From Thiobacillaceae bacterium (GTDB lineage Bacteria > Pseudomonadota > Gammaproteobacteria > Burkholderiales > Thiobacillaceae), in contig JALOTG010000007.1 in NCBI GenBank assembly GCA_025458005.1, positions 1-35,451 of the forward strand: a DNA stretch of 35,451 nt, given 5' to 3'. The translations under genes were made by a program, and so were the position numbers. Shown here piece after piece: positions 6,447 through 16,045 of the stretch (position 1 is the stretch's first letter; each line of letters begins with the position of its first letter). A model generated the notes under the pieces. That model was not told the origin of the DNA and ran no database searches. It was given only the letters and a program-made list of their open reading frames with translations.

Positions 6447-7547
6447 ATGGACGCAGCAGCAGGCCAAGACGTCGCGCAAATGGTGGCATGGGGCGGGTTC
6501 ATCCTCGCGTTCATCTTCGGCTACGTGGCCAACAAGACCAGCTTCTGCACCATGGGCGCGGTTTCCGACATCGTCAACATGGGGGAGTGGGGTCGCATGC
6601 GGGCCTGGCTGCTGGCCATCGCCATCGCCACCCTGGGCACCAGCATCCTGGTCTACACCGGCGACCTGGACATCACGAAGACCTATTACACCCGGGAGAC
6701 CTTCTACTGGCTGGCGGCGCTGGTCGGCGGGGTGACCTTCGGCATCGGCATGACGCTGGCCTCCGGCTGCGGTCAGCGCACCCTGGTCCGGCTGGGCAGC
6801 GGCAACCTCAAGTCGGTGGTGGTGTTCCTGTTCCTGGGCTATTCTGCCCTGCTGACCATGAACGGCATCTTCCGCGTCTTCCTGGACGAGGTGCTGCGCG
6901 GCGAGATGTTCACCATCCGCCTGGAGCACATGCAGACGCTGCCCGGACTGTTGCACATGGAGGGGCCCGAGTCCCACCTGATGGTGGGGGGCATCGTCTC
7001 GCTTGGCCTGCTGGTGTTCGTGTTCGCCAACCGCGAGTTCCGGCACAACCTGGACAACATCCTGGCCGGCCTGGTCATCGGTCTGGTGGTGGTCGGCGGC
7101 TGGTATGTCACCGGCAAGATCGGCCTGGCGGAAAACGAGTTCATGGAGATGTCCTACGTGGGGACCGATTCCAAGCTGGCCGAGTCCATGACCTTCGTCG
7201 GCCCCCTGGCCTACACGATGGACCTGTGGGCCTATTGGCGGGACAAGAGCGTGACCTTCGGCATCGCTTCCGTGTTCGGCGTGGTGCTCGGCTCGTTCGT
7301 CTATGCCGTGTTCAATCGCAGTTTCCGCTGGGAATATTTCACCTCGCCCCAGGACATGTTCCGGCACCTGATCGGCGCGGCACTCATGGGCTTCGGCGGC
7401 GTCACCGCCATGGGCTGCACCATCGGCCAGGGGGTGACCGGCATGTCCACGCTGGCGGTCAGCTCCGCCATCGTCCTGGCCGGGATCATCGGCGGCGCCG
7501 CGGTCACCATGCGCATCCAGTATTACCTCATGATGCGCGAGGCCTGA
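6447..7547 (+). CDS. YeeE/YedE-family sulfur (thiosulfate) transporter
   Basis: The 366-residue, very hydrophobic product has two sulfur-transport repeats. Family-type cysteines sit in TSFCTMG (Cys34), ASGCGQRTLV (Cys108) and AMGCTIGQGVTGMS (Cys324), placed like those along the thiosulfate path in characterised YeeE/TsuA proteins. It is therefore probably an inner-membrane importer of thiosulfate or a related sulfur compound, but the substrate is inferred. A strong AAGAGGAG ribosome-binding site (6433-6440) fixes the ATG at 6447. It has its own promoter and is followed 89 bases later by a TlpA-like thioredoxin, suggesting a sulfur or thiol-redox function for the pair. Confidence 0.88.
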   Translation: MDAAAGQDVAQMVAWGGFILAFIFGYVANKTSFCTMGAVSDIVNMGEWGRMRAWLLAIAIATLGTSILVYTGDLDITKTYYTRETFYWLAALVGGVTFGIGMTLASGCGQRTLVRLGSGNLKSVVVFLFLGYSALLTMNGIFRVFLDEVLRGEMFTIRLEHMQTLPGLLHMEGPESHLMVGGIVSLGLLVFVFANREFRHNLDNILAGLVIGLVVVGGWYVTGKIGLAENEFMEMSYVGTDSKLAESMTFVGPLAYTMDLWAYWRDKSVTFGIASVFGVVLGSFVYAVFNRSFRWEYFTSPQDMFRHLIGAALMGFGGVTAMGCTIGQGVTGMSTLAVSSAIVLAGIIGGAAVTMRIQYYLMMREA

Positions 7548-7636: not shown

Positions 7637-8236
7637 ATGCGTACGATACTGGCGGCTTGTTTGCTGGGCCTCGGCCTGATCCTCTCGGCCGGTGCCCATG
7701 CCAATACGGAGCCGACCAAGGCCATCAACTTCCAGTTCACCGACATCAACGGCAAGTCGTTCAAGCTCTCGGATTTTCAGGGCAAGTGGGTTCTGGTCAG
7801 CTTCTGGGCGCCTTGGTGCCCGCTGTGCTGGGCTGAGGTGCCCGCCCTGAACGACTTGAACAAGCGCAAGGATTTCGTGGTCATCGGCATCGGCCTGGAC
7901 TACGGCCCGGACGAGAACGTCGTGCGCGAGACGGCCGCGCGGCACAACCTGGATTTCTTCGCCGTGGTCGCCGGAGGCGCGCGGCGCAATCCCGACAGCC
8001 CGTTCCGCCAGGTGGGGCCGGTGGATTTCTACCCGACGTCCTATCTCTACGACCCCAATGGCGAGATCGTCATGTTCATCCCGGGTCAGCTGCGCATGAA
8101 GAACATGCTCGCCTTCATGGATTCCTGGAACGCCAAGAACGCGAAGGCCCCCGCCGCGTCGGCAGCCGAGGGGGATGCCGGCAAGGCGCAATCCGGCGCG
8201 AGCCGAGCCAGGAAACCCGCCCGCACTACCTACTGA
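7637..8236 (+). CDS. Exported TlpA/ResA-like thioredoxin-fold protein
   Basis: The 199-residue product has a signal peptide (MRTILAACLLGLGLILSAGAHA, cleavage near residue 22), then a TlpA/AhpC-type thioredoxin fold. VLVSFWAPWCPLC carries the active CXXC at Cys61-Cys64, and VDFYPTSYLYDPNG contains the cis-Pro-type loop. The C-terminus (about 168-199) is a low-complexity Ala/Lys/Arg tail. It is probably a periplasmic thiol-disulfide oxidoreductase; its partner may be the upstream transporter pathway or cytochrome maturation, but the sequence does not decide. GGAAAGGA (7623-7630) supports the ATG at 7637. Confidence 0.88.
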   Translation: MRTILAACLLGLGLILSAGAHANTEPTKAINFQFTDINGKSFKLSDFQGKWVLVSFWAPWCPLCWAEVPALNDLNKRKDFVVIGIGLDYGPDENVVRETAARHNLDFFAVVAGGARRNPDSPFRQVGPVDFYPTSYLYDPNGEIVMFIPGQLRMKNMLAFMDSWNAKNAKAPAASAAEGDAGKAQSGASRARKPARTTY

Positions 8237-15167: not shown

Positions 15168-15944
15168 TCAGGCCTGATTCAGGCTGGGCAGCTGTCCGCC
15201 CCGGTCGCAGAGCTCGGCGGGGGCCTTGTAGAACCACATCTGCCAGACGGAAATGACCCACATGGCGGCGAAGGACGTGCCCATGATGGCGCCGCTGATG
15301 ATCACGATCCAGGCAAAACCGGACCAGACCTTGGTCAGGTACCAGGACGCCACGTCGGTGAGCAGCACCGCGAAGGGCGCGGCGATGAGCACGCACTTGA
15401 GCCAGGTGGGGCGCACGTAGGCATGGGTGAAGATGTAGCCGACGATGAAGAAGATGAAGGTGATGGAGAACAGGTGAATGTGGGATACCCGCACCAGGGT
15501 GTGGAGGTTCATGCCCTCGTCCTTGGCCGTGACCTTCGACACCCCATCATAGTTGGAGAAGTTGGGCAGGTGCGGGTTGGCGTCCGGGTTGTGGCACATG
15601 ACGCAGTGTTCCTGCAGGATCGGGTTGATCTTGCCCTCGAACTCCTCCTGGGCGGCGCCGGCATGCAGCCAGTCGAAGATCACCTGGCGCTTTTCCGCCG
15701 GCAGCATGTCCGCCATGGAGGCGCGCAGGGCGGCTTCCAGCTTGGTCCCTTCGGGGTTGCCGCTGTAGGAGATCATCAGGTCCTTGGCGGAGAGCATGGG
15801 GTTGCCGTCCTTGCCGGCGTGGTTTTCCCAGACCTGGATCATGGCCATGAGATAGCCCGTGCCGAAGACGATCAGCACCATGGTGAACAGCACCCGCATC
15901 GACATGGGCAGGAAGGAGAAGTGTATGGATCGATAGGCGCTCAT
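15168..15944 (-). CDS. Membrane-anchored c-type cytochrome, unassigned family
   Basis: The 258-residue product has membrane segments at about residues 17-36, 156-176, 182-202 and 209-235. The loop between the first two (about 37-150), presumably periplasmic, holds one haem c site CVMCH (Cys114, Cys117, His118). His148, His155 and His157 lie at the start of the second helix and His174 at its end, so a haem b in the membrane is possible. It is therefore probably an electron carrier or quinol-linked cytochrome subunit; the partner is unknown. The ATG at 15944 has AAGGA upstream; a TTG at 15959 is an alternative. An FNR-type box lies about 90 bases upstream, suggesting anaerobic expression. I do not recognise a characterised family. 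Confidence 0.8.
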   Translation of the reverse strand: MSAYRSIHFSFLPMSMRVLFTMVLIVFGTGYLMAMIQVWENHAGKDGNPMLSAKDLMISYSGNPEGTKLEAALRASMADMLPAEKRQVIFDWLHAGAAQEEFEGKINPILQEHCVMCHNPDANPHLPNFSNYDGVSKVTAKDEGMNLHTLVRVSHIHLFSITFIFFIVGYIFTHAYVRPTWLKCVLIAAPFAVLLTDVASWYLTKVWSGFAWIVIISGAIMGTSFAAMWVISVWQMWFYKAPAELCDRGGQLPSLNQA

Positions 15945-16000: not shown

Positions 16001-16006
16001 ATTACA
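16001..16006 (-). promoter_or_regulatory. Candidate -10 element of the cytochrome gene
   Basis: On the minus strand TGTAAT (5 of 6 matches) lies at 16006-16001, about 57 bases before the cytochrome ATG. The predicted start near 15994-15997 would place the FNR-type box at about -42 to -44, close to the class II activator position. Confidence 0.45.
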
Positions 16007-16031
16007 ATATTCCCACCGACGCGCGCAGGCC

Positions 16032-16045
16032 TTGATCTCAATCAA
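16032..16045. promoter_or_regulatory. FNR/Anr-type binding site
   Basis: TTGAT-N4-ATCAA matches the FNR/CRP-family anaerobic consensus in all ten conserved bases on both strands. It overlaps the 3' end of the DUF2069 gene and stands upstream of the minus-strand cytochrome gene. Its position relative to a -10 at 16006-16001 suits activation by an oxygen-sensing FNR or a Dnr-like nitric oxide regulator. Which regulator is used cannot be seen. Confidence 0.75.

Follow-up and report, generated by a model that had tools for sequence, protein, structure and literature searches.

Gene and protein organization at the locus

The window, by which we mean the whole stretch of 35,451 nucleotides that was analysed, contains a minus-strand open reading frame at 15168-15944 (ATG at 15944, stop codon at 15168-15170) encoding a protein of 258 amino acids. 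The gene runs convergently to a leuA-like gene (identified by eye) and follows a DUF2069 gene on the same strand; the surroundings correspond to ordinary chromosome. It is present as a single copy in its own genome, which is about 90% complete. Elsewhere in the window, a YeeE/YedE-like transporter gene (6447-7547) is followed by a thioredoxin-like gene (7637-8236), both named by eye.

Together, the open reading frame and an AlphaFold2 model built on alignment A1 (mean pLDDT of 91.2, pTM of 0.80) describe a protein in which helix 1 is followed by a loop bearing the motif CVMCH and then by three further helices. A sequence-only reading of this DNA had placed a CXXCH loop of about 110 residues between helices 1 and 2; this loop is real and measures 104 residues between the AlphaFold2 helix limits. 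The CXXCH motif is predicted from the sequence to attach haem c covalently. Given a periplasmic haem loop, His155, His157 and Asp197 would lie toward the periplasmic ends of helices 2 and 3, and His174 toward the cytoplasm. The features of the locus are the following.

15168..15944, minus strand: 258-aa open reading frame for a membrane c-type cytochrome whose family is uncharacterised (open reading frame and relatives)
15819..15905, minus strand: transmembrane helix 1, residues 14-42 (AlphaFold2 helix limits)
15654..15797, minus strand: residues 50-97, the haem domain's first half, similar to the C-terminal half of PSCyt1 and containing the invariant Met77 (profile comparison)
15714..15716, minus strand: Met77, proposed distal haem ligand (132/132 haem-bearing homologues; ligand role inferred)
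15495..15653, minus strand: residues 98-150, the haem domain's second half, similar to the N-terminal half of PSCyt1 (profile comparison)
15591..15605, minus strand: CVMCH haem c attachment motif, residues 114-118 (sequence; C, C and H in 132/132)
15429..15506, minus strand: helix 2, residues 147-172 (AlphaFold2)
15474..15482, minus strand: His155-x-His157 core motif, retained in haem-less relatives too (conservation count)
15336..15407, minus strand: helix 3, residues 180-203 (AlphaFold2)
15354..15356, minus strand: Asp197, in helix 3 (132/132 haem-bearing, 12/12 haem-less)
15234..15317, minus strand: helix 4, residues 210-237 (AlphaFold2)
16032..16045, minus strand: FNR/ANR-type box TTGATTGAGATCAA, which overlaps the stop codon of the DUF2069 gene upstream (pattern count in relatives)
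16004..16009, minus strand: TATTGT, a hexamer that could be the -10 element, with class-II spacing to the box (by eye; inference)

The box lies 88 to 101 nt upstream of the ATG. The pattern TTGAY-N4-RTCAA was found within 200 nt upstream of 24 of 39 relatives from the window's clade, which comprises the family members not assigned to g10 or g12; shuffled sequence gives an expectation of 0.02. Among the 57 other rows, 2 have the pattern. When TTGAT-N4-ATCAA was sought within 300 nt upstream, with at most one mismatch, 24/96 rows matched, compared to 1/96 inside genes and 1/96 after one shuffle of each; the 96 rows include the neighbouring cytochrome at locus L065, which is not a whole-protein homologue, and the haem-less proteins of L065, L129 and L130. 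The four middle bases of the box vary, which suggests selection on the half sites. Conservation of the box was not found outside the window's clade. The anaerobic-type promoter proposed earlier is thus borne out as an FNR/ANR-type box conserved in the clade, in which the pattern makes expression at low oxygen via an FNR/ANR-type regulator probable; such a regulator would bind at the candidate box.

Family searches and distribution

No Pfam model reached its cut-off with the native protein: PccH (PF22297) at an E value of 0.088 and Haem_bd at 0.2 both fell below it, and neither PF01292 (cytochrome b561/Ni_hydr_CYTB) nor PSCyt1 (PF07635) was among the Pfam matches. Searches of NCBIfam and, using phmmer, of the PDB with the native single sequence gave nothing relevant, and no solved structure was matched. 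The sequence-only reading had been unable to place the protein in a known complex, and the Pfam and NCBIfam searches, none of whose models reached its cut-off, agree with it. With profile A1, made from 40 aligned members, the PDB returned 9l08_A at 4.5e-6 plus weak cytochrome matches. The protein family is absent from the family libraries searched, and the surprise lies in its haem domain.

Within the taxonomic family, 70 of 117 genomes contain relatives. In the class, 61 of 369 genomes do so at E up to 0.001, a count that includes the window's own genome, and 56 of these matches are at E<1e-30. With profile A1, relatives were found in 64 of 299 phylum genomes; 61 of the 64 belong to two families outside the class, f200 and f220. 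To judge in part by hydrogenase operons similar to those reported for Ghiorsea, these two families may be Zetaproteobacteria. A collection of named genomes gave 34 loci, nearly all of them from metagenome-assembled genomes (MAGs) of Thiobacillus, Hydrogenophilales or other betaproteobacteria, the exceptions being an alphaproteobacterium (L065) and a planctomycete (L066). The match in the latter, a Rubripirellula MAG, is a 25% identical stretch across residues 97-171, which may hint that the domain is far more widespread. A strongly diverged haem-bearing member (L199:2716-3423; 26% identity over the matched part) reads "LHVHAF" where others read "SHIHLF". The plasmid collection gave one partial match, a decayed copy on a Sulfurovum mangrovi plasmid (NZ_CP087125.1; L116:7900-8250) that adjoins [NiFe]-hydrogenase genes. 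Its haem domain and helix 2 are absent, and the remaining part contains a stop.

A probable circular permutation of the haem domain

The haem domain is very probably a PSCyt1-like (class I) cytochrome c that has been circularly permuted in nature. Its halves do not follow the class I order: in profile comparison, the segment with the Met and the C-helix comes first and the segment with the N-helix and CXXCH second, such that residues 50-97, including "SGNPEGTKLEAALRASMADMLPAEKRQVIFDWLHAGA", resemble the final part of a PSCyt1 cytochrome, and residues 98-150 its initial part. A haem-domain profile of 40 rows was compared by hhalign with the 13 cytochromes of cluster 14, 12 of which are direct upstream neighbours of this gene. 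Two of the 13 were scanned in Pfam; the one from L067 exceeded the PSCyt1 cut-off, and the one from L065 fell below it. In native order, the alignment scored 64.2 over 43 columns; once the halves were swapped, it scored 83.3 and extended over 83 columns. None of 200 column shuffles of the first half reached the swapped score (maximum, 72.2). Moreover, the first half alone scored 31.0 against cluster 14 (null mean of 10.6, sd of 2.3, maximum of 21.7), mostly from a 19-residue stretch, the "LPAEKRQVIFDWLHAGA" helix. Fourteen cut points were tried, and a gain was seen only at columns 56 and 64, at or beside the boundary between the halves. Order aside, both halves are related to PSCyt1-type cytochromes, as judged against 13 sequences of one cluster only. 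The raw alignment puts Met77 two residues off the Met of the partner cytochrome; we infer that Met77 is the distal haem ligand.

Searches of the PDB with the native-order profile gave 9l08_A with a whole-chain E value of 1.7e-8. This value adds up three copies that contribute about 11.5 bits apiece, and no copy is significant by itself; in the alignment, the C-helix lies ahead of CXXCH. The same search gave 5z25_A at an E value of 0.16, with the same C-helix-first order as judged by matched ranges. Neither chain was found with the swapped profile at E up to 1.

Further comparisons differed by reference set. Against a more distant set of monohaem cytochromes, the swapped and native orders both scored 26.9, a result without gain, and the first half alone scored 14.7, below the null maximum of 21.6. 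The multihaem set gave 38.7 swapped and 36.1 native, no gain beyond the null (maximum, 42.0); against 64 multihaem domains, the first half alone scored 16.2, above all 200 shuffles (maximum, 14.4). As a sanity check, an ordinary monohaem set scored best in native order and fell at all six rotations. Swapping the halves gave only a slight improvement in Pfam scans of members, and the families that 16 members matched at E up to 0.1 did not include PSCyt1 in either order. In structure searches, Foldseek returned no match with an E value up to 0.001 for the whole model (best E of 1.0) or the haem domain alone, and VIA-align returned none for the haem domain alone; aligners that follow sequence order, as both of these do, are expected to miss a permuted domain. 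The whole-model matches from VIA-align, of which a soluble helical protein was best (Z of 8.1) and which included the haem-copper oxidase 7deg (Z of 6.8, rmsd of 7.0), were set aside as common helical packing.

Conserved residues of the membrane core

We then counted residues in 144 nonredundant homologues, i.e., 132 with CXXCH and 12 haem-less, which were left from 191 after removal of exact duplicates (E up to 1e-8 to profile A1, under 420 aa). Ten residues (Y60, M77, W92, C114, C117, H118, H157, D197, W201 and G218) are present in each of the 132 haem-bearing homologues, and two more, H155 (Met in one) and D142, in 131/132. The sequence-only reading had stressed His148, His155, His157 and His174 around helix 2, and had held that loss of CXXCH and His residues among orthologues would count against it. 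The positions were correct, and C114, C117 and H118 are kept in 132/132, the 12 further homologues having no haem domain. The four-His picture did not hold: only His155 and His157 are family-wide, His148 occurring in 15/132 and His174 in 79/132 haem-bearing homologues.

The haem-less homologues are of several kinds. Nine of them (L129, L130 and L191 to L197; for example, L129:5609-6298 and L130:1871-2503) carry a Met/His-rich stretch, perhaps metal binding, in place of the haem domain. The core protein of L065 has no insert, and genes for a PSCyt1-like and a c553-like protein lie just upstream of it. A third haem-less type, with an extra N-terminal hydrophobic region, was seen at L184:6199-6867 and L198:2588-3439; that of L184 comes after three CXXCH-bearing genes. 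Pfam matches in neighbours of haem-less relatives were DUF4198 in L196 and DUF3347 in L193.

His155, His157 and Asp197 are each present in 12/12 haem-less homologues. The HxH motif and the Asp are thus invariant even where the haem domain is lacking, which argues for a redox or ligand role of the membrane bundle itself. This bears on a simpler explanation, in which the helices merely tether a permuted cytochrome c that acts as an electron shuttle, the His and Asp residues being structural or serving to bind a partner subunit. Such an anchor would fit the presence of one haem only, the lack of a family-wide His pair across two helices and the nature of the neighbouring genes, which encode other electron carriers; we consider it rather unlikely, since HxH and Asp197 persist in all haem-less homologues, including the split version near separate cytochromes at L065.

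The idea of the sequence-only reading, that the bundle also holds a haem b and that electrons pass from it to haem c within one chain, was weighed against the same counts. The ligands could be His42, at the end of helix 1, together with His155 or His157, or else His155 and His157 across a dimer. His42 is present in 117/132 haem-bearing homologues and His155 and His157 nearly always, and all three would point toward the periplasmic side according to the helix limits. However, His42 is missing in 15/132 haem-bearing and 12/12 haem-less homologues and His174 in 53/132. No second family-wide transmembrane His was found on another helix for a classical bis-His haem b, and a dihaem b/c protein appears improbable.

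Gene neighbourhood and candidate partners

At loci of at least 5 kb, a codirectional CXXCH gene was found within 400 bp of 29 of 85 haem-bearing homologues, compared to 39 of 1149 control genes from the same loci; the control is slightly lenient, as controls touching the target never scored positive, and related loci are not independent. In 12 of the 29 positives (nine g10 loci, both g12 loci and L118), a cluster-14 cytochrome lies just upstream; among the ten g10 loci fetched, L075 is the one without it. A c4-like gene lies downstream at six others, with four haem motifs at L033, L034 and L073 and six at L120 to L122. The remaining positives are 10 f200 loci with a monohaem cytochrome c gene downstream and 1 other. 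For many close relatives of the window gene, no cytochrome gene is adjacent. In the window's own genome, a relative of the four-haem protein (59% identical) is encoded on another contig (L210:3108-4256), which has no box of the same pattern.

Among 19 fetched f200 and f220 loci, a monohaem cytochrome c gene comes next downstream in 11 and is followed by a trihaem one in eight; at several of these loci, the cytochromes are followed by a gene resembling hemN (by eye) and by one for a truncated globin (Pfam in L173). Paralogues also occur among hydrogenase genes. At L126, one directly follows the gene for cytochrome b in a [NiFe]-hydrogenase operon, and this cytochrome b matches PF01292; at L170, one lies among hydrogenase maturation genes. 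"Elongation factor-1 alpha" is, we assume, a product name used in databases for proteins like the window cytochrome. In a study of Hydrogenovibrio SP-41, an "elongation factor-1-alpha" is among the 27 genes surrounding a group 1d hydrogenase (cluster II) (PMC6501319). This gene product is possibly a misnamed member of the window protein's family.

These neighbourhoods raise the question of an accessory factor that would deliver electrons for the maturation or reactivation of metalloenzymes (hydrogenase, haem enzymes) at low oxygen, in their biogenesis or protection and not in respiration. The hemN-like and truncated globin genes near f200 members are compatible with such a factor, as are the HupE, HybE and Hyp-like genes adjoining members in hydrogenase operons and the haem-less relatives with Met/His-rich loops, the L196 one being beside a DUF4198 gene. 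No such neighbours were found at the window-clade loci examined, however, and the multihaem cytochrome neighbours suggest bulk electron flow, so that we give this explanation little credence.

Association with denitrification, sulfur oxidation and oxidases

The sequence-only reading had tied the gene to respiration of nitrogen or sulfur compounds. Gene presence and absence were compared across genomes; these profiles ignore the tree, and several genomes are incomplete. Genes of the cytochrome d1 family (PF02239, NirS and relatives; E<1e-50) are present in 63 of 117 genomes of the family, namely in 41/70 with the cytochrome gene and 22/47 without it (Fisher P = 0.26). The trend was negative in genus g10 (5/19 versus 18/37; P = 0.15) and positive outside g10 (36/51 versus 4/10; P = 0.08), neither being significant. 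SoxB-like genes were found in 21/40 gene-positive and 17/40 gene-negative genomes chosen from the class (P = 0.50). In the absence of a significant link to PF02239 or SoxB, the claimed specificity for nitrogen or sulfur is not supported. A component specific to denitrification or sulfur oxidation would suit the FNR/ANR/DNR-type box, the presence of PF02239 in more than half of the family genomes and the trend outside g10, but the overall P values and the opposite trend in g10 make it very improbable.

Oxidase genes were also compared. In the class, ccoN-like genes are present in 36/40 gene-positive and 25/40 gene-negative genomes (P = 0.008); because the ccoN-like query matches 108/117 genomes of the window's family, a link to the cbb3 oxidase cannot discriminate there. 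A distinct ccoN-like subunit, roughly 468 aa long and distinguished by its score (ten of the 16 were read), occurs in 16/40 gene-positive and 0/40 gene-negative class genomes (P = 5e-6). It was rejected as a general partner, the best match in the window's family being 31% identical. This ccoN-like gene belongs to a conserved operon that also contains several genes for c-type cytochromes (L200 to L209; for example, L201:4378-5784). In 14 of 23 f200 and f220 genomes examined, the protein is 76 to 79% identical to that of a class member, suggesting horizontal transfer.

A possible membrane-to-periplasm electron conduit

Our best reading, to which we assign a probability of roughly 0.45, is that of a membrane-anchored electron-transfer cytochrome in which a permuted haem c head and an HxH/Asp core form a membrane-to-periplasm conduit at low oxygen. 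In this tentative scheme, a permuted class I cytochrome c domain would be inserted between helices 1 and 2 on the periplasmic side, and helices 1 to 4 would form a bundle with the His-x-His of helix 2 and the Asp of helix 3 toward the periplasmic face. The bundle would take electrons from the membrane, either from quinol near His157 and Asp197 or from a partner cytochrome b, and pass them singly to the haem c just above. From there, they could reach soluble or lipoprotein c-type cytochromes (PSCyt1, c4/c553-like multihaem) and, through these, terminal acceptors. In hydrogenase operons, the cytochrome b could instead be the electron source for the same module. The invariance of His157 and Asp197 points to these residues for the putative quinol site, and the direction of electron flow and the identity of the partners are likewise proposals. 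A path from a quinol site via haem c to periplasmic cytochromes explains most of what was found, i.e., the membrane core, the position of the haem, the partners and the low-oxygen-type promoter. Quinol is a two-electron donor, and the single haem counts against this reading.

In a broader and more speculative version, somewhat unlikely in our estimate, the protein would represent a new redox adaptor, a four-helix HxH/Asp quinol core with interchangeable periplasmic heads. The head would be a permuted cytochrome c in the window protein and a Met/His-rich loop in L129, L130 and L191 to L197, and at L065 there would be none, with separate cytochromes instead. Such a one-haem quinol:cytochrome c conduit would work beside bc1 at low oxygen and serve several respiratory modules, including group 1 [NiFe]-hydrogenases.

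Significance and comparison with known systems

If the permutation is real, it would be a circular permutant of cytochrome c that occurs in nature and is widely conserved, and it would show how the loop of a membrane protein can acquire a spliced-in haem domain. If the HxH/Asp core oxidises quinol, bacteria would possess an undescribed route by which electrons leave the membrane for periplasmic cytochromes at low oxygen. Copies occur in lineages of the Thiobacillus type, in families that do not belong to the class and within hydrogenase operons. Met77, His155, His157 and Asp197 are named residues that are open to direct tests. The open-licence literature searched contained no description of the window protein's family or of a natural permuted cytochrome c, and to our knowledge, circularly permuted cytochromes c are known only as laboratory constructs.

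The closest likeness is to monohaem cytochromes c of the PSCyt1 (PF07635) and PccH (PF22297) types, PccH being the best weak Pfam match of the native protein, below cut-off. Cluster 14 is matched both by the half with CXXCH and by the half with the "L..e...I..W...GA" helix; in the window protein, in contrast, the halves appear swapped, and two membrane helices flank the inserted domain. The structures 9l08 and 5z25, which we take to be engineered permutants of c555 and c552 and soluble laboratory constructs, resemble the window protein in that the C-helix precedes the N-helix and CXXCH (in 5z25, by matched ranges). They differ from it in that its order is natural, present in 132 haem-bearing homologues and embedded in the membrane. 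The cytochrome b subunit of [NiFe]-hydrogenases (PF01292) is similar as a membrane electron-transfer partner, directly followed by a paralogue at L126, whereas the window protein has no PF01292 match. Finally, the proposed role of the window protein, from membrane quinol to periplasmic c-type cytochromes, recalls that of the NapC/NrfH-type membrane quinol dehydrogenases. The latter are multihaem proteins with one helix; the window protein, in contrast, combines one haem motif with four helices and the HxH and Asp residues.
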